A DNA stretch of 64,000 nt from Streptomyces sp. SUK 48. Lineage in GTDB: Bacteria; Actinomycetota; Actinomycetes; Streptomycetales; Streptomycetaceae. Shown in pieces: positions 33,258-53,014 of this stretch; positions within the stretch are counted from its first letter, which is position 1; every line of letters starts with the position of its first letter. A program made the translations under genes and the position numbers. The stretch is taken from contig NZ_CP045740.1 in NCBI RefSeq assembly GCF_009650765.1, forward strand, positions 5,308,001 through 5,372,000, read 5' to 3'. The notes below the pieces were generated by a model that saw only the letters and a program-made list of their open reading frames with translations, made no database searches and was not told the origin of the DNA.

Positions 33258-34523
33258 TCAGACCAGGTCCCTGCGCCCGCGGACGGAGCTGGTCCACAGG
33301 GACAGCGGGGTCAGGAAGCCGATGGCGACGATCAGCCAAAGGGCGCCGCGGCTGCCGAGGAGTGTGCCGGCGATACCAGCGGTCAGGGCGCCGACGGGGA
33401 CCGCTCCCCAGGAGACGAAGCGGACGGTGGCCATGACACGGGGCAGAAGTTCGGGCGGGGTGACCGTCTGGCGGTGGGTGCGGGCGAGAACGCTGAGCAC
33501 CACCGCCGCCGCGCCGACGCCCACGTTGCCGAGGGCGAACAGGAGGAGGCTCCAGCTGCTGCCGGCCAGGGGCAGCAGAAGGGTGGCGCAGGCACCGACC
33601 AGGGTGGAGTACAGGATCGCGCGGGCGCTGCCGAAACGGTTGGCCAGGGTAGTGGTCACGGCGGCCCCGATGAAGCTGCCCAGCCCCTCGGTGGCGATCA
33701 GGACGCCGACGAGGCTCGCCGGGACGTCGAGCGTTCTGACGAGGAAGACGGGGATGAGCGCCATGAGCGCACCGAGGGTGAAGTTCACCAGGGTCGCCGC
33801 GGCCGCGCAGAGCCGGATGACCTTGTGGCGGACGACGAAGTGCCAGCCCTCCTTGATGAGCGCCAGGGTCGGCTCCCGCTTGGTCTGTGCCGACGCGGGA
33901 TGCGCGGGTCTCGGCAGGCTGCGCAGGAGCACTGCGGAGACGAGGTAGCTGACGGCGTCGAAGACGAGGCTGACGGCCGCGCCGCACAGCTGGACCAGCA
34001 CACCGCCGACCGCGGGGCCGCCCATCTGGGTGGCGGCGGCGGAGCCGGAGGTGAGGCTGTTGCGCGCGGTCAGTTCCTCCTTGCTGACGATCGACGGAAG
34101 GAAGGTGGAGTTGCCGACGTCGAACACCACCGTCGCCAGGCCCACGACCAGGGCGACGACGACGAGTTGCGCCAGGTGCAGGACGCCAAGGAGAGCCGCG
34201 ACGGGCACGGACAGGACGGCGACGGCCCTGATGACGTCCATGGCCACCTGAGTGCCGCGCAGCGGCAGGCGCTGCACGATGACACCTGCGGGCAGACCGA
34301 TCGCGATCCAGGCGGCGTACTGGGCCGCCGGGAGGAGACTCACCTCGAAATTCGACGCGTGCAGAACACTGACGGCGAGGAGGGGCAGGGCGACTGTGGT
34401 GACCGCGTCGCCGGCCCCGCTGATCGTCGATGCGGTCCAGAACCGCCAGAAGAGGGATGCCCCTTTCGCCGCCCGGCTGATGGCCGCTGAGTCATCAGGT
34501 CTGATCGTCTGGTCGGCCGTCAC
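33258..34523 (-). CDS. MFS exporter
   Basis: A 421-residue major-facilitator protein with about 12 membrane helices, similar in pattern to MFS_3/enterobactin-type exporters (WRFWTASTISGAGDAVTTVA at the N-terminus; NSLTSGSAAATQMGGPAVGG before helix 5). A cytoplasmic stretch (AQTKREPTLALIKEGWHFVV) lies between the two halves. At the left end of the biosynthetic cluster and next to its regulator, it probably exports the product or gives resistance. Confidence 0.85.
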   Translation of the reverse strand: MTADQTIRPDDSAAISRAAKGASLFWRFWTASTISGAGDAVTTVALPLLAVSVLHASNFEVSLLPAAQYAAWIAIGLPAGVIVQRLPLRGTQVAMDVIRAVAVLSVPVAALLGVLHLAQLVVVALVVGLATVVFDVGNSTFLPSIVSKEELTARNSLTSGSAAATQMGGPAVGGVLVQLCGAAVSLVFDAVSYLVSAVLLRSLPRPAHPASAQTKREPTLALIKEGWHFVVRHKVIRLCAAAATLVNFTLGALMALIPVFLVRTLDVPASLVGVLIATEGLGSFIGAAVTTTLANRFGSARAILYSTLVGACATLLLPLAGSSWSLLLFALGNVGVGAAAVVLSVLARTHRQTVTPPELLPRVMATVRFVSWGAVPVGALTAGIAGTLLGSRGALWLIVAIGFLTPLSLWTSSVRGRRDLV

Positions 34524-34638
34524 CGGTCCCCCACCTCCATGAGAATGGCAGCGATCGCGGCAGTCACAGGTCTTGCACGGCTTGCCGATATCGCTGACTT
34601 TTTACGCTTCGGGAATTGCGGATATTGCATGGTCACTG

Positions 34639-35694
34639 TCAGCTCGCGTCTTCGCCGACCATGTCGACGGTCCCCGCGTCGAGCAGACCCGAGTTGGCGA
34701 TGAAGACGCCCAACTGGCAGCGGCTGCGCACTCCGAATGTCTCGTACATCTTGGAGATATGGCTGCGACAGGTCCGCACGCTCAATCCCATGCGACGGGC
34801 GATGGTCTCGTCCGTCTCACCGTCGGCGAGCAGCTTGATGATGGACAGGCGGACATCCGAGAGCAGGACCTGTACATCTGGGGCGCGGTTTCGGGAGGGG
34901 AAGGGAGTTCCCAGGATCCAGGCCCGCTCGAAGATGCCGACCAGGAATTCCACTACGGCCGGCTGATAGACGGCGAGGGCGGCCTTGCGATCGCTGCGGG
35001 CCGGGATGAAAGCGACCTTGCGGTCGAAGATGATGAGGCGCTCGGTGATCTGCTCGAGGCTTCGGACCTGACCGCCGTACTCGGTCACCTGGTTGACGTA
35101 GCGCCTGGTGGCCGGACTGAAACGGGCGGAATGCTGATAGACCGTGCGCATGCGGATGCCGCGGTCCAGCATGTCTTTGGTGGCCGTCCAGGCCGATTTC
35201 AGGCTCTCCGCGCTCCGGCCTCCGCCCGGCTGGGCCGTGAGGACCTCCTCCTCGCACCGTGCGGCAGCCCGCTCCAGCTCGGCGTTTATGGCGTCGTGGC
35301 CGACCAGGGTGACGAACTCCAGGTTCCGGTCGGAGCCGGCGACCGCCTCGGTGTAGGCGTCCTGGTACTTGCCGAGGTCGGCGCGGAGCCGGAACGCCTC
35401 GCGTTCCAGGTTCTCGATCTGCCGGTCGAGCGGTGCGAGAAGTCTCGATGCCGCATGGCGCGGAGTGGAGACGCTGAAAGTCTCTCCGTCCTGATGGACC
35501 GGCACCAGCAGGTTGTAGCGGCACAGCTTCTCGACGGCGGCGGCTGTGCGTTCCCCGTTCCAGCCGAGCGTTTGGCTCAAGCCGCTCAGCTGAACGTGCC
35601 TTTGACGGGCGGCCAGAGCGTACACACGCTCTGGGTCCGCGTCTTCTGGTTTGACGTCAGCAACTTCTATTTGCTTCAGTGTTGTGTTGCTCAC
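34639..35694 (-). CDS. LuxR-type transcriptional regulator with TrmB-like N-terminus
   Basis: A 351-residue regulator. The N-terminal part (about 20-75: LAARQRHVQLSGLSQTLGWN) looks like a TrmB-type winged helix. The middle (about 120-270) resembles the phospholipase-D-like ligand domain of such proteins. The C-terminus has a LuxR HTH (LADGETDETIARRMGLSVRT; CRSHISKMYETFGVRSRCQL). The GTG at 35694 reads MSNTTLKQIEV. It is the only regulator in the cluster and so the likely controller of the palindromes at 41252 and 49560. Confidence 0.88.
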   Translation of the reverse strand: MSNTTLKQIEVADVKPEDADPERVYALAARQRHVQLSGLSQTLGWNGERTAAAVEKLCRYNLLVPVHQDGETFSVSTPRHAASRLLAPLDRQIENLEREAFRLRADLGKYQDAYTEAVAGSDRNLEFVTLVGHDAINAELERAAARCEEEVLTAQPGGGRSAESLKSAWTATKDMLDRGIRMRTVYQHSARFSPATRRYVNQVTEYGGQVRSLEQITERLIIFDRKVAFIPARSDRKAALAVYQPAVVEFLVGIFERAWILGTPFPSRNRAPDVQVLLSDVRLSIIKLLADGETDETIARRMGLSVRTCRSHISKMYETFGVRSRCQLGVFIANSGLLDAGTVDMVGEDAS

Positions 35695-35912: not shown

Positions 35913-35990
35913 CAGTACGGTTTTGAGACACAGTGCAGGTCAGGGCGGCTGAATTCTGCCGGTGAGGGTCTGTGGGACCGGCCCGGCGGG

Positions 35991-36185
35991 TCAGGCGCGC
36001 GTGGCGGAATCCGTCCAGGCGATGAGGTCCTCGACCTCCGCCACGCAGCCCCCGCAGCCGGATCCGGCGCCCGTCTCGTCACATACCGCCGCCGCGTCGC
36101 GGTAGCCCGCCCCGATCGCCGCCATGATCTCGCTCTCGGGCACCCGCGCGCACAGGCAGATCAGCGGGTCATCACTGCCGGACAC
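35991..36185 (-). CDS. Bacterioferritin-associated-ferredoxin-like [2Fe-2S] protein
   Basis: A 64-residue BFD-like protein. Cysteines C10, C12, C44 and C47 (CLC...CGGC) match the [2Fe-2S] ligand pattern of the BFD/NirB domain, and EIMAAIGAGYRDAAAVCDET is typical of the fold. It overlaps the HAD gene by 14 nt and is the last gene of a leftward operon. Inside this cluster it may feed electrons or iron to the diiron or 2OG oxygenases rather than serve bacterioferritin; that is inference. Confidence 0.85.
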   Translation of the reverse strand: MSGSDDPLICLCARVPESEIMAAIGAGYRDAAAVCDETGAGSGCGGCVAEVEDLIAWTDSATRA

Positions 36186-36846
36186 CGTCGCCCAGACCTT
36201 CCGCCCAGCGGACGAGTTCGGCGTCGGCGAGTGAGGACACCAGCCAGTCGTGGTCCAGCACGGCGCCCGGCAGGGAGGGCACGGTGACGACGTAGAGGCC
36301 CGCCGCCCGGGCCGACGCGATGCCGGTGGCGGAGTCCTCGAAGGCGACCGAACGGCCCGGGAGGGCGCCCAGTGTCTCGCACGCCACCAGATAGAGGTCG
36401 GGGGCCGGCTTGGCCGTGGTCACCTCGTCGGCCGCGAAGGACACCGGGAAGTACTCGGCGAGACCGGACGAGATGAGCGCGGTGTCGAGCAGTTCCCGGG
36501 GGGAGTTGCTGGCCACCGCCACCGGAAGGGCCGCGGCGCAGCGCTCGACGAGTCCGGCGGCGCCGGGCAGGGCGTCGGCCCCCTGCGCCAGTTCCTCGCG
36601 CACCAGGCCGAGCAGTTCGGCGGCGAGCTCGCGACCGGCTCCGGGCCGGCCGAAGTACTCGGCCATCGCCTCGCCCGCACCCTGCAACGTACGGCCGATG
36701 ACCAGGGCCTTCTGCTCCGAACCGAAGTCGTGGCCATGTGCGGCGAAGATCTTGGTCTCGGCCCTGGTCCAGCAGACCTCGGTGTCGACCAACAGTCCGT
36801 CACAGTCGAAGACCACGGCCTGCGGGGCGGGGGGAAGGGCGCTCAC
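36172..36846 (-). CDS. HAD-superfamily phosphatase/phosphomutase
   Basis: A 224-residue HAD enzyme of the beta-phosphoglucomutase-like subgroup. Motif I is FDCDGLLVDTE (D14, D16), motif II VASNSPRE, motif III K in TTAKPAPDLY and motif IV FEDSATG. The GTG at 36846 (MSALPPAPQAVV) follows TTGGAGGAAC. It overlaps its neighbours on both sides. A role in removing a phosphate from a sugar or amino-acid intermediate is likely; a second HAD lies at the far end of the cluster, fused to CYTH. Confidence 0.88.
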   Translation of the reverse strand: MSALPPAPQAVVFDCDGLLVDTEVCWTRAETKIFAAHGHDFGSEQKALVIGRTLQGAGEAMAEYFGRPGAGRELAAELLGLVREELAQGADALPGAAGLVERCAAALPVAVASNSPRELLDTALISSGLAEYFPVSFAADEVTTAKPAPDLYLVACETLGALPGRSVAFEDSATGIASARAAGLYVVTVPSLPGAVLDHDWLVSSLADAELVRWAEGLGDGVRQ

Positions 36847-37829
36847 TCTTTGTTCCTCCAAGCGGCGGCCGCGACGGTGGCGAGCAGCGGCGCGACACCC
36901 GGTTCGTTGCAGTCGATCCACTCTGTCAGCACCGACAGGACGTCCCAGCGGGCAGCGCCCGGGGGCAGCTCCGTATCGCTCAGGGCCGTCAGCCAGTGCC
37001 GGACCGCGTCGCGTGTGCGGTGTTCGCGGGCGAGCGCGCCCCACCGGTCCGTACGCCCGGCGAGCCGGCCGAGGCTCGGCTGCGCCGCCAGGTCGTGCAG
37101 CGGCACGTCCCGCTCCAGTTCGGCGACCAGGCTCCGGGCCGGGCACGGCTGCCCCTCGACGGGCGGGCTCTGCGTGAGCGCGCCGCGCAGCCACGCGGTC
37201 CCCGTACGGTAGGTGAACAGCCGCAGCTCCCGGACCAGATCGGCCGGTTCGTCCGGGGTGTGGACGAAGTTGAACAGCCCATTGACCCGGCCGAACCGGG
37301 TACGCAGGTCACGGCCGTGGGCGGAGGCGGGATCGGCCGCGCCCTTGGCGGCGGTCAGCCGGACGCTCGCGGGGAGGCCGGATCCCGCTCTGCGCGTGTC
37401 CCGCAGCAGGACGAGCGCGGACGGGCCGGAGTCCAGCAGGTGGTCGACCACCGCGATCCGCTGCTGCGAGGCGGCGTTGAACTGGTAGCGCCAGATCTCC
37501 CTGGTCAGGACCGGGTCGAAGTGAAAGGGCCGGGCCGCCAAGGGCTTCCAGCCTTCTTCCTCGAGGATCTCCAGCACCCTCGTGCCGCGCCGGCCGGCCA
37601 GGGCGTCCGGCTTGAGGACCACGAAGGTGTTCGCGTGCAGCCAGGCCCGCTCGCTGGGGGAGCCGAACAGCTCCAGCCCCTCCCGCGCGTAGGTGTCCAG
37701 GCGGTACAGGTCCCGCTTGCGCGGATCCGCGGTCAGGGAGTCGAACGCCCGCGGCAGCACGGCCGAGCGGGCCGTGCCCGGCGCGTGGAGGTCCGCCGGC
37801 ACCGGGTCGGCGGTGGTCGTCGTGGTCAC
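36843..37829 (-). CDS. Nucleoside-diphosphate-kinase-like protein, enlarged
   Basis: A 328-residue protein with an NDK-type core inside a longer chain (NDK proper is about 140 residues). TFVVLKPDALAGRRG matches the NDK start, and FGRVNGLFNFVHTPDEPADL matches the region with the phosphorylated histidine (NxxHxSD in NDK; here NFVHTPD). About 60 residues precede the core and about 120 follow (EWIDCNEPGVAPLLATVAAA). The GTG at 37829 overlaps the hydrolase stop. An NDK fold in a natural-product operon is uncommon; it may phosphorylate a nucleotide-like intermediate or a small molecule. Confidence 0.75.
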   Translation of the reverse strand: MTTTTTADPVPADLHAPGTARSAVLPRAFDSLTADPRKRDLYRLDTYAREGLELFGSPSERAWLHANTFVVLKPDALAGRRGTRVLEILEEEGWKPLAARPFHFDPVLTREIWRYQFNAASQQRIAVVDHLLDSGPSALVLLRDTRRAGSGLPASVRLTAAKGAADPASAHGRDLRTRFGRVNGLFNFVHTPDEPADLVRELRLFTYRTGTAWLRGALTQSPPVEGQPCPARSLVAELERDVPLHDLAAQPSLGRLAGRTDRWGALAREHRTRDAVRHWLTALSDTELPPGAARWDVLSVLTEWIDCNEPGVAPLLATVAAAAWRNKE

Positions 37830-38599
37830 CTGTCCTCTTTCCTGGCGGTGGCGGCACCGCCGCCGATGAGCTCCAGCACGGTCCGGCAGGCGGGGCGCTG
37901 CGGGTTCACCAGATGCATGTGGCGCGCGCCGGGCACGGACACCGTCGTCAGCCGCAGTCCGTCCTTGGCCCACCGGCCCAGCTGGTGGCGGGTGAGTTCC
38001 TCCGGTACGGCCTGGTCCTCCCGCGCGCTCACCACCGTGACGGAGGACGCGTCGGCCGGCGCGAGTACGGGCGTCGCCTCCTGGTGGGCGCCGCCTGCGG
38101 CGAGGTGCTCGGCCAGGAAGACGTCCACCGCTCCCTCGCCCACCCCGAGCCGGGCCGCTTCGGCGAGGTCGGTCACCGGGGCGAGCAGCACGACGCGGGC
38201 CCCTCCGGCCTGCCCCTGGAGGGCGGCGAGCAACAGATGGGCGCCCGCGGAGTGGCCCACGAGCACCGCGCCGTCCCAGGCGCCGTCCTTCTGCCCGAGC
38301 AGGCGCAGTGCGGCCTGGCAATCCTCCGCGGCGCCCGGCCACGCCCCGCCGTCCCAGCTCGGCCGGTACTCCAGGACGGCGACCCGGTGGCCGCGTTCGG
38401 TCAGGGCGAACGCCAGCGGTTCCAGATCCTGCGCCGTGCGGTCGTGCCGCCAGAAACCGCCGTGCACCAGCACCACCGGTGCGGCCTGCGAAGGCTCGGC
38501 GACGGGCGCGGTGCCGTCCTCCGGTTCCGCCGGCCCGTACAGGTCGATGCGCTGCCACGCGGAGGGGCCGTACCGGAGGTGGCCGAAGGCCGTGCTCAC
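37826..38599 (-). CDS. Alpha/beta hydrolase
   Basis: A 257-residue hydrolase of the arylformamidase/esterase type: oxyanion motif VLVHGGFWRHD, nucleophile VLVGHSAGAHLLLA, a late Asp (SAREDQAVP) and His (GARHMHLVN). It may cleave an ester or an N-formyl/amide group; a formyltransferase is encoded at 49639, so deformylation is one possibility. The GTG at 38599 overlaps the upstream stop by 4 nt. Confidence 0.85.
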   Translation of the reverse strand: MSTAFGHLRYGPSAWQRIDLYGPAEPEDGTAPVAEPSQAAPVVLVHGGFWRHDRTAQDLEPLAFALTERGHRVAVLEYRPSWDGGAWPGAAEDCQAALRLLGQKDGAWDGAVLVGHSAGAHLLLAALQGQAGGARVVLLAPVTDLAEAARLGVGEGAVDVFLAEHLAAGGAHQEATPVLAPADASSVTVVSAREDQAVPEELTRHQLGRWAKDGLRLTTVSVPGARHMHLVNPQRPACRTVLELIGGGAATARKEDR

Positions 38600-39327
38600 A
38601 GGAGACCGAACGTTTCGAGACGCGACACCCAGTGGTGCATGCGCTCGTCGGACATACGCACCTCGGCCCGGCGCTCGGCGGACTCCTCGGCGGCGCCCAG
38701 GCGGTACCAGACGGTCCCGTCGTCGCGGCGGATCATGAAGGCGCGCTGCTTGCGAGCGGGGCTCTGGATCATCAGCGAGATCGTCTCGGGCTCGGTGATG
38801 GTGGTGTGCAACTGCTCGTGGTCGAGGGTGATGCACCGGCCGGCCGGCTCCTCACGCACGAAGTACGGCCAGAAGCGGGAGACGTCGGCGCTCTCGTCGA
38901 GCGGCTGGTCGGTCGCGTACAGAGTGTGCTGGTACGCGCCGTGCAGGATGTAGGCGGTGAAGCTGTAGCGGTGGTTGTGGACCCGCTCGTACTGGTCGGT
39001 GTTGGCGAGCCGGAGACGGATGCGCAGGCCCTTGTCCTGGTCGTCCCAGATCACGATCTTGTCGTCGAGCGCGTGGCACTCGAACTTCTCGCGCAGCTCC
39101 GGGGTGCGCAGCGCGCGGCCCACGAGGGTGCGCAGCAGCGCCCGGTCGTCGCCGAGCCGGCGGGCGATCGCCTCGGTGATCTCCGCCGCCGCCTCCAGGT
39201 CGTCCCAGCGCACCCTGGGAAGCGAGGCCATGAGCGCCTCGGCCTTGGCGATGTCCTGCTCGGAGGGCGCGGTCAGCAGGATCGAGGGGGTGAGATCCAG
39301 CAGGTCGTCGCCGGGGCGGGTCACCAT
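38596..39327 (-). CDS. Cupin-like protein (paralogue 2)
   Basis: A 243-residue protein paralogous to the product of the gene just upstream. Shared pattern: RVHNHRYSFTAYILHGAYQH (H-x-H metal site), ITLDHEQLHTTITEPETISL and a terminal WYRLGAAEES. This fits a single-domain cupin, perhaps an iron dioxygenase. The ATG at 39327 shares its A with the upstream TGA, so it is translationally coupled. The reaction is unknown. Confidence 0.7.
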   Translation of the reverse strand: MVTRPGDDLLDLTPSILLTAPSEQDIAKAEALMASLPRVRWDDLEAAAEITEAIARRLGDDRALLRTLVGRALRTPELREKFECHALDDKIVIWDDQDKGLRIRLRLANTDQYERVHNHRYSFTAYILHGAYQHTLYATDQPLDESADVSRFWPYFVREEPAGRCITLDHEQLHTTITEPETISLMIQSPARKQRAFMIRRDDGTVWYRLGAAEESAERRAEVRMSDERMHHWVSRLETFGLL

Positions 39328-40010
39328 CACAGCACCTCCATGGCCCGCAGCCGGCCGGTGAGTTCGTCGAAGTAGTCCTTGCTGATGCGCTTGCTGCCGC
39401 GGCGCTCGGCCTTTTCCTTCTCTTCGCCGAAGCGCCACCAGACGCGGCCCGTCTCGCGTTCGGTGATGATCGAGCGCTCCTTCTCGGCGGGGCCACGCAG
39501 GAAGAGCGAGACGGTGTCCGGGGTGGTGTACGTGGTGTGGATCTCGCTGTGGTGGAGCGTGTAGCAGTTGCCCGCCTGCTCGTGGGTGACGAACCGCGGC
39601 ACCACGCGCAGATCGGTCGGAACGGCATCGAAGTCGTCCTGGGCGCTGCGCGGAATGTCCTCCTCCGAGAGGCGCCCGGTCAGTTCGTGCCGCACGTGCT
39701 TGTACTGGCCGCGCATGATCAGCGAGGTGAAGGTGAACCTGTGGTCATGCGGCCGGTCCCGGTGGTCCTCGGTCGAGACGTGCACACGGATACGGAAACC
39801 GCGGTCCAGGGCGTCGTAGATGACGAGCTTGTCGAGCAGCCGGTGGTGCTCGCACTTGTCGAAGAGGTCCTCCTCCTCACGCGCCCGCTCCAGCAGCTGC
39901 GTCAGAGCTGCCTTGTCCTCGGAGAGCGCGGTGAGGATCTCCTTGGTCTGCGCGCGGGCCTTGGGGAGATCGGACCAGTCGACGACCAGCCGGTCGAGTG
40001 CGTCAAGCAT
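39327..40010 (-). CDS. Cupin-like protein (paralogue 1)
   Basis: A 227-residue cupin-like protein. DRPHDHRFTFTSLIMRGQYK (H-x-H) and YTLHHSEIHTTYTTPDTVSL align with the downstream paralogue, and WWRFGEEKEKAERRG with its WYRLG end. An N-terminal helical part (KARAQTKEILTALSEDKAAL) precedes the barrel. The two products could form a heterodimer. I do not know an experimentally studied member. Confidence 0.7.
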   Translation of the reverse strand: MLDALDRLVVDWSDLPKARAQTKEILTALSEDKAALTQLLERAREEEDLFDKCEHHRLLDKLVIYDALDRGFRIRVHVSTEDHRDRPHDHRFTFTSLIMRGQYKHVRHELTGRLSEEDIPRSAQDDFDAVPTDLRVVPRFVTHEQAGNCYTLHHSEIHTTYTTPDTVSLFLRGPAEKERSIITERETGRVWWRFGEEKEKAERRGSKRISKDYFDELTGRLRAMEVL

Positions 40011-40029: not shown

Positions 40030-41172
40030 TTACGCGACGGGGAGACGGGCTTCCGACCGGACGGGCAGTCCGAACACCCGGTGCGCCGTGCCCGCGGCGA
40101 GGGTGCGGACGTCCTCGGGAGACAGGCCCTGCGACTGCGCGTTCGCCATCTGACGGGCCAGCGGCACCGAACCGGCCGCCACGATCCCGTCCTGCTGGTA
40201 CCAGAGCGCGTTGTCCACGCGGTGGTGCAGGTCCTGGCCGCCGAGCCGTGCGGAGTCGCAACGGTCGGTCATCATCATCGAGTTCTCCACGCCCATCAGC
40301 TGGACGGCACGGGCCGCGATGGCCAGGTCGACGTGCTCCCCGTCGAAGTTGACGCAGGCGCCGATACGGCCGGCCGCCGCCTGGCGCATGATGGCCGCCG
40401 GGACCGGTCCGACGATCCGTGCCATCTGGTCGAGGGTCCAGGCGGGCAGGTCGTAGGAGGCGATGACGGCGTCCCGCTCGGCGCGCGCCCGGGTGCTGCG
40501 GAAGGCGTGCCGGATCAGCAACGGCATGTCGTTGAACAGGTGGTCGGTGACGACGCGGACGCCGTTGCCCGACCACTCGCTCCGCCAGGCCGTCTCGACG
40601 ATCTCGTCGACCTGTTCCGCGCTGCGCAGCGGGTCGGCACGGGTGAAGTGGCCGAGCGCGGGACGGATTCCGTGGGCCATCAGGAGCGGGATGAGCCAGT
40701 CGAAGCCGGTGTCGCGGGCGGTGGGCTCGTCGTGGAGTTCGGAAGCGGGCGAGAACGCGTCGGGCGACAGGACGGTGTACACGAGTCCGTACGGTCCGAG
40801 GGCCGCGAGGCGCTCCCACTCGTGCCTGCTCGGGGCCCAGACGGTCGCCGCGGGCGTGCCGCCGTGGCTGGCCAGGAGCGGCCCCTCCAGGGCGATGCCG
40901 GCGACGTGCGGCAGCAGTCCCTCGCCCCGCATGCGGTGGTACTCGTGCACGAAGGTCTCGAACTCCGCGAGCTGCTCCCGGTGGAGGTACATCGTGGGCA
41001 GGCTCAGGACGCCCTCGCTCGCGCACCAGGCGTCGAGGCGCGCAAGGTCGACCTTGGTGAAGTCCGAGAAATCGACGTCACCGAACCCATGGCAATGGAC
41101 CTCCACGGGCGGCAGCCCACTCCATGGATTCGCCATAGGCGACCTAGACCCGCTCGCTGCAGTGGATTCCAC
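40030..41172 (-). CDS. NagA-like amidohydrolase
   Basis: A 380-residue metal-dependent amidohydrolase resembling N-acetylglucosamine-6-phosphate deacetylase. Seen: HxH (VEVHCHGFGD), metal glutamate (GIALEGPLLA), GHFTRAD, TDHLFNDMP, NFDGEHVDLA and the catalytic Asp in MMMTDRCDS. It may deacylate an amino-sugar-like or N-formyl intermediate. GTG 41172 has GGGAG 9 nt upstream; ATG 41136 (MANPWSGL) is an alternative. It is the first gene of the leftward operon, divergent from the peptide gene across about 215 bp. Confidence 0.82.
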   Translation of the reverse strand: MESTAASGSRSPMANPWSGLPPVEVHCHGFGDVDFSDFTKVDLARLDAWCASEGVLSLPTMYLHREQLAEFETFVHEYHRMRGEGLLPHVAGIALEGPLLASHGGTPAATVWAPSRHEWERLAALGPYGLVYTVLSPDAFSPASELHDEPTARDTGFDWLIPLLMAHGIRPALGHFTRADPLRSAEQVDEIVETAWRSEWSGNGVRVVTDHLFNDMPLLIRHAFRSTRARAERDAVIASYDLPAWTLDQMARIVGPVPAAIMRQAAAGRIGACVNFDGEHVDLAIAARAVQLMGVENSMMMTDRCDSARLGGQDLHHRVDNALWYQQDGIVAAGSVPLARQMANAQSQGLSPEDVRTLAAGTAHRVFGLPVRSEARLPVA

Positions 41173-41457: not shown

Positions 41458-41462
41458 TGTAA

Positions 41463-41516
41463 GCGCCGGGGCGCCGAGTTCCTCTGGATCACGGCGCCCC
41501 GGCGCAAATCTTTTTT
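41463..41516 (+). terminator. Terminator between peptide gene and asnB-like gene
   Basis: Perfect 14-bp stem GCGCCGGGGCGCCG (41463-41476) and CGGCGCCCCGGCGC (41492-41505), then AAATC and six T. Such a leaky terminator after the first small gene is usual in RiPP operons and makes the peptide in excess over the enzymes. Confidence 0.92.
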
Positions 41517-46071: not shown

Positions 46072-47346
46072 TCAGGCATCCAGGTCACCGGTCATCAGCC
46101 GGACGCCGAGCGTCTCCTCCAGCCGGCCCAGCAGCTCCTCGGCCCTGCCCACCGCAGCCCGGCGATTCCCGGCACGCAGGATGAAGCGGGCGACGGCCTG
46201 GCCGGGGGCGACCGTCTCGCCCGGGCCGGTCCGGTAGGCGTCGAACCCGATGACCTCCAGGACCTCGGCCTGCCCGTCGAGCGGCGTGAGGCAGGCCGTG
46301 TCGGACAGCCGTCCGCCGTCCCGGGGGACGACCGCGAACACGGCGGTACAGCCGGTGAACTCGAGGGGGACGTCGACCGGTTCTCCGCTCATGAGCTGCA
46401 ACCAGGATCGGTAGATGTCCTGCCCGGTGGCGTGCCGGTAGGCGTGCGGCAGGCCGCCCCCCATGACCCGCGGGTTGAACTCCACCAGCACCGGCCCGCG
46501 TTCGGTCACCAACACCTCCAGGTGGAAGATCCCCTGGTCGGCTCCGATGGCCCGGCAGACCTCCTCGGCGTAGGCGACACAGTCGGCGCTCTCCCGCGGC
46601 GAGAGTCCCGAGGGAACGCACGAGCCCAGTTCGACCACCTCGTTCTCCGGCGCGCGGAACCGGCCGGTGACGCAGAACGGGAAGAACTCGCCCCGCCGGA
46701 CTCCGATCTCCACCGAGACCAGCCTGCCCGTCAGCTTCTCCTCCACCAGGACGCCCCGTGAGAACTGAACCCGCCAGTGCGCCGGAACCTCGTCGGTGCC
46801 GGTCAGCACGTTCCGGCAGGCGGCCGCCGCCTGCTGCGGGCCGTCGGCCACATGCGAGAGCAGACTGGCGCTGCCGGACGGCGGCTTGATCACGACGGGG
46901 TAGCCGATCCGCCCGGCAGCGGCCAGCGCCTCGTCGATGTCGAGCGCGCGGGCCCAGCGAGCGGACGCCAGCCCCGCGTCCTCGAGCGCCGCCCGGCAGC
47001 GGTCCTTGCGCCGGGCGGTGATCACCGCGTCGGGCGCCGTACCGCGCAGCCCGAGGCTCCGGCAGGCGACGGCCACCGCTTCGGCGGCCGGCTCCTGGAA
47101 CGTCACCGCCACGTCGATCGGTGACTCGGCGTGGCGTTTTTCCAGAGCTTCGAGCACCGCGACGGGGTCCGTCGTGTCGATCCCGTCGATCAGCCGGTCC
47201 ACCGCCCGGACGGCCTTCAGGGTCTCGCCGGTGAGCGCGTACTGCGTCAGCGCGGGCTGCACGAACGTCACGCGGTGGCCCGCCTCCTTGGCGAGCCGTA
47301 CGGCCTGTACCGCGGGCGGATTGACGTCGACGATGGCGATGTGCAC
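46072..47346 (-). CDS. ATP-grasp ligase
   Basis: A 424-residue ATP-grasp enzyme that should form an amide bond through an acyl phosphate. N-terminal HIAIVDVNPPAVQAVRLAKE, the lid GYPVVIKPPSGSASLLSHV, EEKLTGRLVSVEIGV and the metal-binding VEFNPRVMGGGLPHAY fit the carnosine-synthase/BtrJ-like group that joins amino acids. GTG 47346 (VHIAIVDVN) with GGGAC upstream is chosen; ATG 47373 adds nine residues. It is convergent with the diiron oxygenase gene. Confidence 0.88.
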   Translation of the reverse strand: MHIAIVDVNPPAVQAVRLAKEAGHRVTFVQPALTQYALTGETLKAVRAVDRLIDGIDTTDPVAVLEALEKRHAESPIDVAVTFQEPAAEAVAVACRSLGLRGTAPDAVITARRKDRCRAALEDAGLASARWARALDIDEALAAAGRIGYPVVIKPPSGSASLLSHVADGPQQAAAACRNVLTGTDEVPAHWRVQFSRGVLVEEKLTGRLVSVEIGVRRGEFFPFCVTGRFRAPENEVVELGSCVPSGLSPRESADCVAYAEEVCRAIGADQGIFHLEVLVTERGPVLVEFNPRVMGGGLPHAYRHATGQDIYRSWLQLMSGEPVDVPLEFTGCTAVFAVVPRDGGRLSDTACLTPLDGQAEVLEVIGFDAYRTGPGETVAPGQAVARFILRAGNRRAAVGRAEELLGRLEETLGVRLMTGDLDA

Positions 47347-47411
47347 GAGCGGTGTCCCTACGGTCGGTCCCATGGCGGGGCGGGAGGGGTGGGCAGCGGG
47401 CCGGCCGGGGC

Positions 47412-48038
47412 TCAGCGGTAGTGGACCTCGCCGGCGCGCACCCGGTACGGGTCGCGGTGGAAGACCTCGAAGGACACCGCCGGCCGGCCGCCGAATCGCG
47501 CTCCGGCGGCGGCGAGGTTACGGCCGAGGAAGCCCCGGACGTATGCCTCCGGCTCCTCGTCGGTCAGCGTCTCCAGGTAGGTGGCGTGCTCCAGCACCGC
47601 CTGGACGCCGCGCTCCACCGCCCAGGTGACGTCCACGGCGTGCGTGGGGTACGGGGACCCCGCCACCGCCTGCCAGCGCACCCCCTCCCAGGGCTCCAGG
47701 CCCTCCTCGGGAAACAGGTACCGGTTGGCGGCGTCGGCCGCCGCGTCGAGGGCGGCCCGGCCGACGTTGCGGTGGTCCGGGGTGTTCCATGAGACACCGC
47801 GCCAGTGGTCGTGGTGATTGAGCGTCAAGACCAGCTTCGGGCGGTGCCGGCGCACCGCGTGCGTGAGATCCCGGCGCAGTGCGAGGCCGTATTCGATCAG
47901 CCCGTCGGGGTGGTCGAGGAAGTCCACCTGCTTCACGCCGGCGACCGCGGCGCTCTCGCGCTGCTCCCGCTCCCTGATCGGCGCCGCCTTCTCAGGGTCC
48001 AGGCCGTCGATCCCGCACTCGCCCCGGCTCGCGTTCAT
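47412..48038 (-). CDS. PIG-L family deacetylase, N-terminally truncated
   Basis: A 208-residue protein of the PIG-L/LmbE family (zinc N-deacetylases such as MshB). The C-terminal two thirds fits: FLDHPDGLIEYGLALRRDL, LTLNHHDHW and NTPDHRNVGRAALDAAADAA. The usual N-terminal 50-60 residues with the zinc motif AHPDDxE are absent, and no such motif was found in other frames upstream, where another gene (47992-48315) overlaps by 47 nt. It may be inactive, or act on a substrate with a changed metal site. Confidence 0.75.
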   Translation of the reverse strand: MNASRGECGIDGLDPEKAAPIREREQRESAAVAGVKQVDFLDHPDGLIEYGLALRRDLTHAVRRHRPKLVLTLNHHDHWRGVSWNTPDHRNVGRAALDAAADAANRYLFPEEGLEPWEGVRWQAVAGSPYPTHAVDVTWAVERGVQAVLEHATYLETLTDEEPEAYVRGFLGRNLAAAGARFGGRPAVSFEVFHRDPYRVRAGEVHYR

Positions 48039-48315
48039 GGTCCGGCTCCCGGGCGGGGCGGACGGAGAATTCTCGGTCGTAGATCAGGGACAGCGCGCCG
48101 TGGATCTCCTCCAGAGCCGCCCGGTCGCCGTCGCCGTAGGCGCGACTCGCCAGCGCGCGGCACGCCGCGGCGAGGTCACCACGGAAGCCGTAGTCGTCGG
48201 ACATCCGGAGCAGCTCGTCGGCCGAGCGGTGCTCCAGGTCGCGCAGGACCGCCGACACGCCCTCGGCGAGCACGTTCTTGCCGTCGGTACAACTGTGGTG
48301 CGATGCCGTGTACAT
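47992..48315 (-). CDS. Small protein of unknown function
   Basis: A 107-residue, mostly helical, soluble protein (GVSAVLRDLEHRSADELLRM; GDLAAACRALASRAYGDGDR) with no recognised domain. The ATG at 48315 opens 21 nt after the oxygenase stop, and its end overlaps the PIG-L gene by 47 nt, so the three genes form one operon. It could be a carrier or accessory protein; nothing in it shows catalysis. Confidence 0.6.
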   Translation of the reverse strand: MYTASHHSCTDGKNVLAEGVSAVLRDLEHRSADELLRMSDDYGFRGDLAAACRALASRAYGDGDRAALEEIHGALSLIYDREFSVRPAREPDHEREPGRVRDRRPGP

Positions 48316-48336: not shown

Positions 48337-49044
48337 TCAGTTCTCGTCCGGGCGGTTCTCGTCATCCGAGAGCGCTGCGGCATCATGCTCGTCCCCGTAC
48401 CACTTCTCGCTCCAGCGCGAGAAGGCGGCGATGAAGATGTCGCGGTGTCCGGACCGCTCCCCGGTGGACACGAGGTCCGTCACGTCGTGGGCGAGCCGCC
48501 GATCGTCGAGGAGAACCGCCTGACCGGGCTCCAACGTGCCGGTCCAGAAGGGCTTCACGTCCCCGGAGTGCCACAGCCGCGTCTCACCGCCCGTGCCCCC
48601 TTCCCGGCGCAGGACGCCGATCATGACGAACTCGTGCCCGTCGTGGTGCACACCCTCCGACGTGAGCGGACCTGGCCGGCCCCGCTCCGCACGGCTGCGG
48701 TTCTGGTGCACGTTGATCTGCCAGTCCTCGTCGCGGTCCAGCCCCATCTCCCGGGCACCCGCGGCGACGAGGGAGGTGAAGTCCGCGTCGAGGGGCGGAT
48801 ACATGCGGCGCATGCCGCCGCCGACCGGGTTGAACTTCTTGAACGCGGTGTAGTCCCGGTGCGGCAGCAGCCCAAAGCTCCACCCGCCGTCGGCCGACGC
48901 CGTCAGCCGGTACTGCGAGAACTTCTTGTACCGGCTTCCTTGCCCCATGTAGAGGTCGATCGGCAACTCGTCGTACGTCGCCAGCAATTCCGGCGAGACG
49001 GAGGGAAGTTCCATCAGGGAGAAACCTTCGGCGCCGAGCGGCAT
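48337..49044 (-). CDS. 2-oxoglutarate/Fe(II) oxygenase (amino-acid hydroxylase type)
   Basis: A 235-residue protein similar to the PF10014 group, which includes L-isoleucine 4-hydroxylase. The facial triad fits GVHHDGHEFVMIGV (H-x-D) and a later histidine in LDDRRLAHDVTDLV; GGETRLW is the usual connector. It probably hydroxylates an amino acid or a bound amino-acid unit. The ATG at 49044 (MPLGAEGFSLMEL) is clear. It is divergent from the formyltransferase across about 590 bp. Confidence 0.82.
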   Translation of the reverse strand: MPLGAEGFSLMELPSVSPELLATYDELPIDLYMGQGSRYKKFSQYRLTASADGGWSFGLLPHRDYTAFKKFNPVGGGMRRMYPPLDADFTSLVAAGAREMGLDRDEDWQINVHQNRSRAERGRPGPLTSEGVHHDGHEFVMIGVLRREGGTGGETRLWHSGDVKPFWTGTLEPGQAVLLDDRRLAHDVTDLVSTGERSGHRDIFIAAFSRWSEKWYGDEHDAAALSDDENRPDEN

Positions 49045-49638
49045 GACAGTCCTTCGCGTCGTCGGAGAGGTGGTTCGCTTCTGCCGGCGCGCGGAGACCA
49101 AGGCCGAAAAGGGAGAAGACGCGGGGCTTGCCGTGGTCCGACCGGACCGCCCCCTCGATGGGCGCGTCAGGGCTCGGGCGACCAGCCCCGCACACACCGA
49201 CGGCGGTGCGGAACCGCGCTCCTGAAGTGGGCTCACAGCATGTTGCGCACCACGACGAGCGTGCCGGCTCCAGGAATGATCACCAGGAGACCCGCGACCG
49301 CCGCACACCCGCTGTCCACCAGTGGGATCCACTGTCAGGTGAGCCGAATTCGGCACGCAGGCCGGGAATCAGTCCCAACGAATGTCGGGATTCTGCCCGC
49401 AACGCTCGAGAGAGAACATGTCACACGTGAGCGAGGACATCTCGGCCTCCTGCTTTCTGGTGCTCCCAGTTGGAACTGGTATTTCCGGGTAGTACAGGCT
49501 CGGCGGCCCGGTTGCGAGCATCACTGATCACCGTTCAACAACTCCAGCGCCGCGGCCCTCATCTCCCTGCAGTGCAGGGAGATGAGCCGCATCTGCCATG
49601 GACCGGCCACCCGATGGGCTCCCAGAGTGGGGCGAGTC
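49045..49638. other. Divergent intergenic region of the right sub-operons
   Basis: About 590 bp between the oxygenase and formyltransferase genes. Short frames here lack coding bias. The striking element is the palindrome at 49560-49584, listed separately. The rest is otherwise plain. Confidence 0.5.
49560..49584. promoter_or_regulatory. 25-bp perfect palindrome upstream of formyltransferase gene
   Basis: Arms CATCTCCCTGCA (49560-49571) and TGCAGGGAGATG (49573-49584) are perfect complements around one G. It ends 54 bp before the likely start codon at 49639. It matches the 41252 palindrome in length, centre and core (TGCA-N-TGCAGG), so it is a candidate operator for a dimeric regulator. Confidence 0.75.
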
Positions 49639-50538
49639 ATGTCGCAACCGCCGCGAATGTCTTCGGGGCCCGAGAGATACAGAGACGGAGTGCTCTTGTC
49701 CGCACCCACTCCGACCGGGGCCACCCTGACGCCCCTGAGCCGTCGTTCGGCGGCCGGGCCGCTGCGCATCGGCGTCCTGGTCTCCGCCACCGGCGCCAAT
49801 CTCACCACGCTGCTGGACCTGCAACGGGCACGGCCCGAGGAGTTCCGGGTCTGCCTCGTCGCCTCGCACGCAGAGCGGGTCAAGGCCCTGGACGTGGCAC
49901 GGCAGGCCGGGGTCGAGGCGTGGCCGGGCGACTTCGACCACGTCTGCGGAAGAGCGTCGGCCGCCGTGGGCCGGTCGGGCCAAGACGCTTACCAGGACCG
50001 GGCCCGCCAGTGGCACGACGCGCTGGACGGACGGATCGCCGACTGGGAGCGGGACAACGGCGAGCTGGACCTGGTCGTCCTCGCCTACCACCGCTGGATC
50101 GACGGCCGACTGCTCGACCGCTACCGGGGACGCATGATCAACCAGCACCCGGCCGACCTCTCGGTCCTGGACGAAGAGGGCCGCAGGCAGTTCACGGGCA
50201 AGGACCCCGTCCGACTCGCGATGACGGCGGGCCGCACGACGACCCGCACCTCCTGCTTCCTCGTCGACGGCACCCGGGACGGCGGAGCGATCCTCGCGAT
50301 GGGACCCGAGGTGCCCGTCGAGGGACGACGGCCGACCGCCGAGGACGCCCACACGCAGGAAACGAGGCAGAAGAGCCTCAGCGACCGGCCCTGCCTGCGG
50401 TGGTCGGTGCAGGCTTTCGCGGCAGGGCGGCTCGCCCTGTCGGACCAGCAGCACCGCGACGGCAGCCGGGTCGTGGTGGTGGACGGAGAGCCGACCGAGC
50501 TCGGCGGACGGCGACTGACCGGGGAGCCCCAGACATGA
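49639..50538 (+). CDS. PurN-like formyltransferase
   Basis: A 299-residue protein of the formyl-THF-dependent formyltransferase fold. GVLVSATGANLTTLLDLQRA matches the N-terminal loop of PurN; the catalytic Asn/His region is LVVLAYHRWIDGRLLDRY with MINQHPADLS. It probably N-formylates an amine in the pathway. The start is unsure: ATG 49639 (weak GGGGCGAG), ATG 49657 or GTG 49690. It overlaps the aminotransferase gene by 4 nt. Confidence 0.82.
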   Translation: MSQPPRMSSGPERYRDGVLLSAPTPTGATLTPLSRRSAAGPLRIGVLVSATGANLTTLLDLQRARPEEFRVCLVASHAERVKALDVARQAGVEAWPGDFDHVCGRASAAVGRSGQDAYQDRARQWHDALDGRIADWERDNGELDLVVLAYHRWIDGRLLDRYRGRMINQHPADLSVLDEEGRRQFTGKDPVRLAMTAGRTTTRTSCFLVDGTRDGGAILAMGPEVPVEGRRPTAEDAHTQETRQKSLSDRPCLRWSVQAFAAGRLALSDQQHRDGSRVVVVDGEPTELGGRRLTGEPQT

Positions 50539-51851
50539 CCGACCTCGCCGACAAGCGCATCCCCTCCTACGCCGGGGCGGGCAACCTGGTCTACCGCGAA
50601 CCCGACGTCCCCAAGTTCGTCTCCGGCTCGGGCAGCTGGCTGACCGCGCACGACGGACGCCGGTACCTCGACGCGGAAGCCGCCAACGGCACCGTCGCCT
50701 TCGGCTACGACGCCACCCTGCTGCACGAGGCGATGCGCCGCTGCGAGCAGCTGCCCGCACTGCCCTCCTTCGCCGAGTCCGAGCTGCGGCTCAAGGTGCT
50801 CTCCCGGCTGGAACCGCTCGTATCCGACGTGCTGGGCACGCCAGGCCGGGTGGAGCTGGACCTCGGCGGGGCCCAGGCCATGGAGACGGCCCTGCGCATC
50901 GCCTTCGCCGCGAACGGCCCGGGCACGATCGTCGTCTTCGAGGGCGCCTTCCACGGCCGCTCCGGCGTGACGAGCATGCTCAGTTCCAGTCCGCGCTACC
51001 GGGAGTTGCTGGCCGCCTGGGGGCTGGAGGTGGTCCGGCTCCCGAGCCCGGACTCCCAGCGGTGCCCGCACGCCGTCGCGGGAGCCGGCTGCGGGCCGGC
51101 CTGCCGTGAGGCCGTCACCCGGTGGGGTTCCGAGCTCAGCGGCGTCGGGGGGCGGGACTTCGGCCGGAAGGTGTCGGCCTTCGTCTTCGAGTCCGTCCAG
51201 AACGTGGGCGGCATGGTGGAACCCGACCACGAACTGCTGCGCGCCGCGGTAGACCACGCCAGGGAGCAGGGCGCGGTGGTCATCGCGGACGAGATCTTCA
51301 CCGGCATGCACCGGGTGGGGCCGCGCTGGGGGTTCCAGCGCTCCGGGGTGACCCCGGACATCGTCGTCACCAGCAAGGGCCTGGCCAACGGCGGTGCCGC
51401 GCTGAGCATGGTCTGGTCCCGCGAGCCCCTGGGCAGCCCGGAGCAGTACCGGCCCGGCAGCCACTCCTCCACGTACATCGGCATCCCGAGCGCCCTCGCC
51501 GTCGTGGACACGGTGCTGGACCGCTGGGAGCGGTGGACCACGGTGGACCAGGACGTCCTGCGGCTGGAGGAGGCTATGCGCGACCGGCTCACCGAGGTCG
51601 CCGCGCGGCACCCGCACCTCGTTCGGGGCGTCGACGCGATGGGCGGCACCGCGCGCATCGTCCTGACCGGGCCGTACGCCGGCCGGATGCGGCACCTGTT
51701 CCGCTCCGGGCACCCGGACGCCGGCGTCCTCGTCGCGACGACCGGCATGGCGCCGGACGTCATCAACGTGCACCCCCCGCTCGTCATCGGGGAACCCGAA
51801 CTGGACTTCTTCGCGGAGGCATTCGAAACGGCGCTGAAGGGAATCGCCTGA
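50535..51851 (+). CDS. Class III PLP-dependent aminotransferase
   Basis: A 438-residue fold-type I aminotransferase. It has the N-terminal WLTAHDGRRYLDAEAANGTV, the EGAFHGRSG loop, Asp in VVIADEIFTGMHR and the PLP lysine in VVTSKGLANGGAALS. It resembles diaminobutyrate/4-aminobutyrate-type enzymes and could supply or use a diamino acid. It is tightly coupled to both neighbours (4-nt overlap before, TGATG after). Confidence 0.9.
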   Translation: MTDLADKRIPSYAGAGNLVYREPDVPKFVSGSGSWLTAHDGRRYLDAEAANGTVAFGYDATLLHEAMRRCEQLPALPSFAESELRLKVLSRLEPLVSDVLGTPGRVELDLGGAQAMETALRIAFAANGPGTIVVFEGAFHGRSGVTSMLSSSPRYRELLAAWGLEVVRLPSPDSQRCPHAVAGAGCGPACREAVTRWGSELSGVGGRDFGRKVSAFVFESVQNVGGMVEPDHELLRAAVDHAREQGAVVIADEIFTGMHRVGPRWGFQRSGVTPDIVVTSKGLANGGAALSMVWSREPLGSPEQYRPGSHSSTYIGIPSALAVVDTVLDRWERWTTVDQDVLRLEEAMRDRLTEVAARHPHLVRGVDAMGGTARIVLTGPYAGRMRHLFRSGHPDAGVLVATTGMAPDVINVHPPLVIGEPELDFFAEAFETALKGIA

Positions 51852-53014
51852 TGGGGGTGGAGACGGAGCGGAAGTTCCTCGTCGGCCGCGGCTGGCGCGA
51901 GACGGTGGTGCGGACCCGGGAGGTCCGCCAGGGATACATGTCCGCCGAACCCGAGCGCGCGGTGCGGGTGCGGATCACCGACGGCACCGAGGCGGTCCTC
52001 ACCGTCAAAGGCCCCCGCGAGGGGGCGCGCAGGGCCGAGTTCGAGTACCCGGTGCCGCTCGCAGACGCCGAGGAGATCCTCGCGCGGCTGTGCCCGCAGC
52101 CGTTGGTGCAGAAGAAGCGGCACCATCTGGGCGGCCGCTTCGACGGCTGGATCGTGGACGAGTTCTTCGGCTCCAACGCCGGCCTGGTGATGGCGGAGCT
52201 GGAGGCCCAGGACGCGGCGGACGTGGTCGACCTGCCCGAGTGGGTCACCGAGGAAGTCACCACCGACCTGAGGTTCGACAACGCCTCCCTGCACGGCCGT
52301 CCGTACCCCACCTGGGCCGCGGGGACGTCACCCGCGCCCCGACCGCTCCGGGACCCCGCCGACGCGGATCTGGTGATCTTCGACAACGACGGCGTACTCG
52401 TCGACTCCGAGCCGATCGCCAACCGCGTCCTTGCCGAGCTGCTCACGGAGGCCGGGTTCCCCACCTCGTACGAGGACAGCATGTGCCGCTACATGGGCGG
52501 CACCCTGGACCGCGTCCGGGCCATGCTCAGGACCGAGACCGGGCGGGATCTTCCGGCGGGATTCGCCGAGCGGTACCGGGCCCGGCTGATCGAAGCCTTC
52601 GAGCGAGACCTGCGGCCGGTCACCGGCATGGCGCAGGTCCTCCAGGCCCTGTCCCGGCGCGGCACTCCGTTCTGCGTCGCGTCGAGTTCACCCCGAGACC
52701 GGCTCGGCCTCGGCCTGCGCGTCACGGGGCTGGCGTCCTACTTCGAGCACCGGGTGTACTGCGCGGAAGACGTCACCCAGGGCAAACCGGCGCCGGATCT
52801 CTTCCTGCACGCCGCAGTCCGTATGGGAGTCGACCCCGCCTACGCGGTGGTGGTCGAGGACAGCGTGCCCGGAGTCGACGCCGCGACGGCCGCGGGCATG
52901 GCCAGCATCGGCTACGCGGCGCTGACCCCGGCCGAGCGGCTGTCCGGCGCGACCCGTGTGGTCCGCGACACCGCCGCACTGGCCGCAGAGTTGGGACTCG
53001 CGATCCCCGGGTGA
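51851..53014 (+). CDS. CYTH triphosphatase-fold and HAD phosphatase fusion
   Basis: A 387-residue two-domain protein. Residues 1-150 are a CYTH (triphosphate tunnel) domain: ETERKFLV gives the ExExK motif (E4, E6, K8), with RVRITDGTEAVLTVKG and QKKRHHLGGRFDGWIVDEF. Residues about 172-387 are a HAD phosphatase (FDNDGVLVDSE with D178 and D180; ASSSPRDRL; KPAPDLFLH; VEDSVPGVDAA). The combination suggests stepwise removal of phosphates from a triphosphorylated small molecule. It is the last gene of the cluster. Confidence 0.88.
   Translation: MGVETERKFLVGRGWRETVVRTREVRQGYMSAEPERAVRVRITDGTEAVLTVKGPREGARRAEFEYPVPLADAEEILARLCPQPLVQKKRHHLGGRFDGWIVDEFFGSNAGLVMAELEAQDAADVVDLPEWVTEEVTTDLRFDNASLHGRPYPTWAAGTSPAPRPLRDPADADLVIFDNDGVLVDSEPIANRVLAELLTEAGFPTSYEDSMCRYMGGTLDRVRAMLRTETGRDLPAGFAERYRARLIEAFERDLRPVTGMAQVLQALSRRGTPFCVASSSPRDRLGLGLRVTGLASYFEHRVYCAEDVTQGKPAPDLFLHAAVRMGVDPAYAVVVEDSVPGVDAATAAGMASIGYAALTPAERLSGATRVVRDTAALAAELGLAIPG

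Follow-up and report, generated by a model that had tools for sequence, protein, structure and literature searches.

A conserved 22-residue peptide beside an AsnB-like synthetase: a candidate peptide-carrier pathway in Streptomyces sp. SUK 48

What is the role of a gene of only 22 codons in the midst of genes for biosynthetic enzymes? This question is raised by a locus of Streptomyces sp. SUK 48 that was examined within a window of 64,000 nucleotides, corresponding to positions 5,308,001-5,372,000 of contig NZ_CP045740.1 in the 8.34-Mb genome. The locus is a block of 21 genes or gene remnants (Table 1), the centre of which (41389-46042; coordinates refer to the window) comprises, in this order, the peptide gene, a hairpin with a run of T residues, the asnB gene of an AsnB-like synthetase, and the genes for a nucleotidyltransferase (NT), a PqqD-like protein and an AurF-family diiron oxygenase. 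To the left of the centre every gene lies on the opposite strand, and to the right both strands are used in mixed order. As shown by comparisons with other genomes, these five central genes represent a conserved actinobacterial core, consisting of the peptide, an AsnB with a domain like the recognition element (RRE) of ribosomally synthesized and post-translationally modified peptides (RiPPs), the NT, the PqqD-like protein and an oxygenase similar to TsnB7, to which varying accessory enzymes are joined.

The 22-residue peptide and its association with asnB

The peptide gene (41389-41457, forward strand) encodes MQKYTKPATKKVAFGTVLITVV and is preceded by a strong ribosome site (AAAGGAGGTGATTC). 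The hairpin 3' of it was equalled by none of 200 shuffled sequences. Loci for comparison were collected by searching for the NT: 31 of 392 genomes of the genus gave a match, and a named genome collection yielded 49 loci (L057-L105), or 50 with the window, in which the presence of the NT is given by construction. An orthologous asnB gene was found at 31 of the 49 loci and in the window (32 asnB loci), rows with less than 30% identity, such as L105, being excluded. The peptide was looked for by a motif scan, by a looser scan of L064 and of the seven asnB loci without a hit, and by a single rule used throughout the 50 loci. The three scans together detected a 22-residue peptide at 31 of the 32 asnB loci, L080 being the exception. 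The single-rule scan, which allowed lengths of 15-40 residues, gave 33 matches of length 22 at 30 of the asnB loci and none at the 18 NT loci without asnB, five of which end at contig ends (8.7-17.6 kb); its matches of other lengths (three at asnB loci, two at the others) have sequences unlike the peptide family. The peptide of L077, situated at a contig edge, was found by the first motif scan. In total, 34 peptide genes were recognized, each of 22 codons. The nearest copy lies 67-144 bp upstream of asnB in the 27 loci measured. Tandem genes are present in L078 (two diverged copies, 2632-2741) and L086 (three nearly identical copies, 9502-9726), and the peptide is located about 5-6 kb from asnB in L078 and L093 and one gene away in L071.

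An alignment of 30 distinct peptides (L088 excluded) yielded the motif form MxxYxKP with invariant M1, Y4, K6 and P7, of which Y4 and P7 were (nearly) fixed and position 6 was restricted (to K or R in the single-rule scan) by the scan rules. Position 12, which like the peptide length was unconstrained by the motif rules, is V in 29 sequences, and the last four residues (19-22) are widely variable. The loci are not all independent, as near-copies are present (e.g. L089/L091 and L095/L096/L102). The differences among the peptide genes are nearly equal at the three codon positions (3646, 3528 and 3946) and therefore provide no separate proof of purifying selection. More than one codon is used at six of nine conserved positions (P7, V12, V17, L18, T5 and G15), and a single codon at Y4, K6 and K10.

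The association was checked independently of the NT by searching the 392 genomes of the genus with a profile built from the C-terminal domain of AsnB. This search retrieved 25 genes in 24 genomes, all of which belong to the NT-matching genomes, and every one of the 25 clusters contains a 22-residue peptide, the distance upstream of asnB being at most 400 bp in 24 cases and about 5 kb in G157. Accordingly, the association of peptide and asnB is not due to the NT search. PqqD-like proteins were detected by BLAST at 28 of the 32 asnB loci, and L065 contains an unmatched PqqD-like open reading frame (ORF) 3' of the NT gene. The conserved co-occurrence of peptide, asnB, NT and pqqD genes that an earlier note on this DNA had anticipated is thus borne out; asnB/pqqD operons consistently devoid of the peptide gene, which would have spoken against it, were looked for among these loci and not encountered. 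No Pfam model matched the window peptide, and no NCBIfam model matched it or five of its relatives. An RRE/PqqD-like domain is present both in the PqqD-like protein (PF05402), the start of which overlaps the NT stop, and at the AsnB C-terminus, which is RRE-like by hhalign and VIA-align. On the basis of these sequence comparisons we consider it highly probable that the dedicated peptide is genuine and is bound by PqqD/RRE.

Core enzymes and the proposed use of the peptide

The oxygenase of the core shares 37% identity over 307 amino acids (179 bits) with the protein encoded at the tsnB7 position beside tsnB9, and it scores 49.6 bits with canonical AurF (phmmer); the TsnB7-position protein gives 25 bits with AurF. 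The underlying trichostatin-type cluster was recognized in two genomes via 97-98% matches to the TsnB9 chain, and its AurF-family gene is presumably tsnB7, judged by position and family. All 32 AurF-family proteins from the 50 loci, 29 of them in asnB loci, reach 145-192 bits with the TsnB7-position protein. The residues E, DExxH, E and HxxDE, which we take to be ligands of the diiron site, are conserved in the oxygenases. According to the available part of PMC5719088, TsnB7 with its helper TsnB6 hydroxylates glutamine and TsnB9 passes the hydroxylamine to a carboxylic acid, with similar enzyme pairs in the actinonin and matlystatin clusters; a TsnB-like cassette makes benzohydroxamic acid, as stated in an excerpt of PMC13418202. 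The TsnB7-like oxygenase along with this published chemistry is the main basis for proposing hydroxamate chemistry, the chances of which appear evenly balanced.

As a separate observation, the oxygenase starts (44942-45010) with MCGIVGLFVGCSALAYCP, which resembles the beginning of a class II glutaminase with two additional cysteines after it. Similar starts were seen in L057, L058, L059, L063, L072, L078, L083, L087, L089, L091 and L104 and in no other AurF rows. This cysteine-rich start is possibly a metal or cluster site, and the N-terminal MCG, conserved in a subclade, may be a remnant of an amidotransferase.

The AsnB-like synthetase retains the residues of an Ntn glutaminase, including the N-terminal Cys, and the glutamate of the GEGSDE stretch is replaced. 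With respect to its fold, TsnB9 and ordinary AsnB match equally well, and no family was excluded on the basis of the Foldseek and VIA lists. Classification as a TsnB9 orthologue was rejected by a tree in which the cluster AsnB falls outside the TsnB9 group. It is likely that the enzyme acts on the peptide C-terminus. The NT scored below its Pfam cut-off (17.8 versus 21), and the nearest structural neighbours of its model (pLDDT 94) are ANT(4')/kanamycin nucleotidyltransferase and LinB (E 3e-7 to 3e-4, TM 0.4-0.6), which transfer an adenylyl group to hydroxyls of small molecules. At four of the 18 loci without orthologous asnB or peptide (L076, L079, L101 and L105) the NT gene adjoins a phosphoenolpyruvate (PEP) mutase gene, which suggests that the NT by itself also serves phosphonate pathways.

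For the core as a whole we favour a RiPP-like peptide-carrier pathway with hydroxamate-type enzymes, a reading that may equally well prove right or wrong; the narrower claim that the peptide is a carrier rather than the product is somewhat better founded. In such a pathway, PqqD and the RRE-like domain of AsnB would hold the N-terminal YxKP motif, and the fixed length, which places the C-terminus always 15 residues past the proline, would bring the C-terminus into the active sites. AsnB would adenylate the C-terminal carboxylate and attach nitrogen from glutamine, most likely hydroxylamine in the form of glutamyl hydroxamate from the TsnB7-like oxygenase, or else ammonia to be oxidized afterwards, and a peptidyl hydroxamate or amide would be the outcome. 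The NT, having the fold of antibiotic O-nucleotidyltransferases, could cap or activate the new group, phosphate intermediates would be handled by the enzymes similar to nucleoside diphosphate kinase (NDK) and by the HAD and CYTH enzymes, and the aminotransferase, formyltransferase, ATP-grasp ligase and 2-oxoglutarate (2OG) oxygenase would build up a small product derived from an amino acid. An amide hydrolase of NagA-like or PIG-L type might release this product from the peptide, and the major facilitator superfamily (MFS) protein would export it. We infer the order of the steps after AsnB, the role of the NT and the product. The interpretation given in the earlier note stands in part: the data are fitted best by a pathway on a peptide scaffold that involves N-oxidation and phosphate chemistry, and the scaffold role as well as the nitrogen-rich, N-oxidised and formylated product proposed in the note are putative.

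Several observations weigh against this proposal. In the tree, the cluster AsnB forms a clade of its own on a long branch from TsnB9, and it lacks the GEGSDE glutamate that is kept in TsnB9 and in the AsnBs compared, so that its acceptor or nucleophile may differ; it also exceeds the NCBIfam cut-off for ordinary asparagine synthase (306.8 versus 267.1 bits). The presumed TsnB6 helper, represented by the ORF adjoining the TsnB7-position gene and thus identified by position, gave no tblastn match in the 50 loci at an E-value of 0.01, and L080 carries asnB without a visible peptide. A release hydrolase common to all loci was not seen, the NagA-like protein was present in 11 of 26 genus stretches plus the window when counted by gene family, and NDK- or thymidylate kinase (TMK)-like kinases occur within the fetched stretch at only 16 of the 32 asnB loci (and at 7 of the 18 others). 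Moreover, part of the accessory set has been lost from the SUK 48 copy.

Among the other explanations, the most serious is that the pathway yields the 22-mer itself in modified form, whole or in part. The product would then be a linear RiPP whose C-terminus is capped by an amide, a hydroxamate or a nucleotide; it might be a peptidyl nucleotide comparable to microcin C, made by AsnB and NT and exported by the MFS protein. All 24 genomes in which AsnB was found independently also contain the NT, and MFS genes occur at 18 of the 32 asnB loci, both in line with this view, and AsnB-type enzymes are described to modify peptide C-termini (to a nitrile, or to amides by TsrC and ScdTA; PMC13060819, in part). 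However, the last four residues vary freely at a fixed length, the core is surrounded by many enzymes of small-molecule amino-acid metabolism, and no leader peptidase was found among the scanned window genes, which leaves the product reading rather unlikely. Less probable still is a trichostatin-like role of the core, in which a small molecule would receive an ordinary free hydroxamate or amide group and peptide and PqqD would be no more than an allosteric helper of AsnB. The TsnB7-like oxygenase and the TsnB9-like fold agree with this, as does the small acid that serves as acceptor in the TsnB systems (available parts of PMC5719088 and PMC13418202), but the RRE-like domain fused to AsnB, the separate PqqD gene by the NT and the constant peptide length argue for the peptide as a substrate. 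A more far-reaching version of the carrier proposal, to which we assign little probability, would make the peptide a new class of ribosomal carrier for reactive nitrogen, in which AsnB and the TsnB7-like oxygenase would turn the peptide C-terminus into a hydroxamate and the ANT-fold enzyme would adenylylate the hydroxamate O to a peptide-bound, electrophilic NH-O-AMP. Pathway-specific amines, phosphonates or other nucleophiles could attack this group, giving N-N, N-O or N-P bonds, or it could rearrange, and a hydrolase would free the product, so that one core might serve chemically different pathways, including the apparent phosphonate cluster of G030 described below. Finally, a cis-acting attenuator leader for asnB, which would match the short ORF with hairpin and T-run directly before asnB in the window and the short distance to asnB in the loci measured, is very improbable because of the tandem and distant peptide copies, and also conflicts with a protein sequence and RRE-type motif conserved across families and with a T-run of at least four in only 9 of 27 loci measured.

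The carrier proposal was also compared with known systems. The trichostatin cassette TsnB6/TsnB7/TsnB9, as well as actinonin ActI/ActJ and matlystatin MatA/MatC, likewise combines a TsnB7-kind oxygenase with an AsnB-type enzyme, whereas the block adds the peptide, PqqD, the RRE-like domain and the NT, has an AsnB of a separate clade without the GEGSDE glutamate, and the 50 loci gave no match to the presumed TsnB6. Lasso systems (precursor, B1/PqqD, C/AsnB-like) share the YxxP-type leader motif, a discrete PqqD and an AsnB-family enzyme, and differ in that the glutaminase N-terminal Cys is kept in the block and a core peptide is missing. A lasso peptide was rejected, since the lasso cyclase and lasso-PqqD models were far below cut-off (cyclase models NF033535, 163.9 versus 525 bits, and NF033561, 59.7 versus 300 bits), 34 genes that all specify 22 residues leave no separate core, and no B2 transglutaminase-like peptidase was found among the block ORFs scanned with Pfam, the other loci not being scanned for B2; the earlier note had likewise listed lasso peptidase and core peptide as missing. 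Pyrroloquinoline quinone (PQQ) biosynthesis resembles the block in the size of the PqqA peptide and in PqqD, and the YTKPA stretch is similar to the WTKPA of PqqA. It was rejected as well, since the alignment contains no conserved Glu/Tyr pair, the residues that are cross-linked in PqqA, and no radical S-adenosylmethionine protein (PqqE) was found among the scanned window genes. In peptide aminoacyl-tRNA ligase (PEARL) systems, the small molecule is carried at the peptide C-terminus. No PEARL/LanB-type protein was found among the scanned window ORFs, and AsnB and the diiron oxygenase are present instead. A ribosomal peptide carrying a small molecule is already known from PEARL pathways of the ammosamide type (PMC12715798, in part), as is the action of AsnB-like enzymes on peptide C-termini from Nitrilobacillin PesC and TsrC/ScdTA; in the accessible text of PMC13060819, PesC belongs to Bacillus-related genera and has a multinuclear non-haem iron oxidase (MNIO) and HExxH proteins as partners, not AurF, NT and PqqD.

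In the open-access literature, the coverage of which excludes most subscription papers, no paper on this gene set was recognized. If the proposal is true, the core would represent a carrier system in which the small molecule is borne by a ribosomal peptide of invariant length and hydroxamate-type enzymes take the place of tRNA-dependent ligases; it has so far been found in seven actinobacterial families and is tied to the chemistry of amino acids, phosphonates, formyl groups and kinases. Gene callers may overlook so short a peptide. Clusters of this kind can readily be searched for with the peptide and the AsnB C-terminus combined, and five small genes would be enough to test the mechanism in vitro.

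Accessory enzymes and the reduced copy of SUK 48

The genes beside the core differ among relatives. G281 contains SbnA/SbnB-type genes (404 versus a cut-off of 350 bits, and 380 versus 327), a haem-oxygenase-like oxidase, a DapF-like epimerase and a pyridoxal phosphate (PLP) enzyme nearest to VioD with a score below the VioD cut-off, and G014 (L031/L060) combines the core with SbnA/SbnB-type genes and a carbamoyltransferase. The SbnA/SbnB pair points to a predicted synthesis of L-2,3-diaminopropionate. A D-cycloserine-like pathway, which the combination of cysteine-synthase-like, DapF-like and ATP-grasp proteins in G281 recalls, was dropped because the PALP enzyme is SbnA with its SbnB partner. 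In G030 (L047), genes for a PEP mutase, a thiamine pyrophosphate (TPP) enzyme that is read as a putative phosphonopyruvate decarboxylase, a helix-turn-helix (HTH)-cupin protein, TauD, a pantoate-ligase-like and a TMK-like protein are located at the core locus, which thus looks like a phosphonate cluster built around the peptide core; among the 32 asnB loci of the named collection, none gave a PEP mutase match. Genes for an orotidine monophosphate (OMP)-decarboxylase-like protein, BtpA and an M20 hydrolase are found beside the core in G157, and adenylation-like (judged by eye) and cupin genes in G287. The joining of such different enzyme sets to one core suggests that the carrier function is shared and that the products differ from pathway to pathway.

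The window is collinear with G281 and G007 at about 91-93% identity over 33255-53037, a span that confirmed the block limits proposed in the earlier note, with two gaps at which about 10 kb is absent in total. At the first gap (48025-48032; about 5.6 kb), the aligned flanks overlap by eight bases, and the absent DNA comprises most of the haem-oxygenase-like gene, the genes for the DapF-like, PLP and a 459-residue protein, another MFS gene and the 5' end of the PIG-L gene; in the relative, PIG-L comprises 253 amino acids and is aligned with the profile from position 1. The second gap (49094-49156; about 4.4 kb) accounts for a second AurF, SbnA, SbnB and the larger part of a gene judged by eye to be LysE-like. 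Because gene fragments remain at the first junction, a gain in the relatives rather than a loss in SUK 48 is disfavoured. Elsewhere in the SUK 48 genome, an SbnB homologue (52%) is encoded, and apart from the oxidase remnant and one weak match (28%) no other close oxidase copy was found. The core is intact in this copy, and since about 10 kb is lacking in comparison with two close relatives, its product may be simpler or absent.

Gene inventory of the block and its surroundings

All genes named in the earlier note were recovered at their positions, and most are backed by Pfam. Its list was correct in nearly all items, except that PIG-L proved to be N-terminally truncated and the adjacent 107-residue ORF to be the start of a broken haem-oxygenase-like gene; the BFD-like protein, a possible electron donor, the alpha/beta hydrolase, the RRE-like C-terminal domain of AsnB and the CYTH fusion are additions. 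Curated Pfam cut-offs were exceeded by AsnB, PqqD, AurF, ATP-grasp, PIG-L, 2OG-Fe_Oxy_2, formyltransferase, class III aminotransferase, NDK and both HAD proteins. No Pfam or NCBIfam model matched the two cupin-like proteins or the NagA-like protein at an E-value of 0.01, and these putative labels are based on conserved His residues and on what we take to be NagA-type motifs (Table 1). In the NDK-like proteins, the His and Lys of the NDK motifs, presumably with their usual roles, are invariant in 10 of 10 family members.

Table 1. Features of the block in window coordinates
Feature	Position	Strand	Evidence or remark
MFS exporter (MFS_3)	33258..34523	-	Pfam PF05977 7e-29; family in 18/32 asnB loci
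LuxR/GerE-type regulator	34639..35694	-	PF00196 3.8e-9
BFD-like [2Fe-2S] protein	35991..36185	-	PF04324 3.7e-13
HAD hydrolase 1	36172..36846	-	PF00702/PF13419
NDK-like phosphotransferase with extensions	36843..37829	-	PF00334 6.6e-9
Alpha/beta hydrolase (BD-FAE)	37826..38599	-	PF20434 5.3e-11
Cupin-like protein 1	38596..39327	-	HxH and further His invariant in 13 family members
Cupin-like protein 2	39327..40010	-	same family as cupin-like protein 1
NagA-like amidohydrolase	40030..41172	-	EGP, DHLFN, TDR in 11/11 family members, HCH in 10/11
22-residue carrier/precursor peptide (predicted) MQKYTKPATKKVAFGTVLITVV	41389..41457	+	relatives in 31/32 asnB loci, all 22 aa
Hairpin and T-run between peptide gene and asnB	41463..41516	+	-43.1 kcal/mol, z -5.5
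AsnB-like synthetase with RRE-like C-terminal domain (~636-731)	41548..43743	+	Pfam; domain by alignment
Nucleotidyltransferase (NT), ANT(4')/LinB-type fold	43837..44616	+	alternative ATG at 43792 possible
PqqD-like (RRE) protein	44616..44903	+	PF05402 7.3e-13
AurF-family diiron oxygenase, TsnB7-like	44942..46042	+	PF11583 5.8e-30
ATP-grasp ligase	46072..47373	-	PF13535 2.1e-14
PIG-L-type deacetylase, N-terminus lost at deletion junction	47412..48038	-	Pfam profile aligned from position 33
Haem-oxygenase-like oxidase gene, first 97 residues, remainder absent	47992..48315	-	relative L025:9162-10247 = PF14518 1e-34
2OG-Fe(II) dioxygenase	48337..49044	-	PF10014 5e-43
Formyltransferase (PurN-like), start uncertain	49582..50538	+	PF00551 2.5e-9; TIGR00639 52 bits, under cut-off 150.1
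Class III aminotransferase	50535..51851	+	PF00202 7.6e-51
CYTH domain fused to HAD hydrolase 2	51851..53014	+	PF01928 3.3e-10, PF13419 4.5e-26

Outside the block, the Streptomyces small RNA Scr2736 (RF02831; 4534-4598, reverse strand) was the sole Rfam match at gathering score in the window. A tyrosinase-like ORF (29340-30233, forward strand) and a chaplin-like ORF (30335-30664, reverse strand) were judged by eye from the translations. The G+C content falls from about 0.70 to 0.58-0.60 in the region 60001-64000, which is perhaps a foreign stretch at the end of the window.

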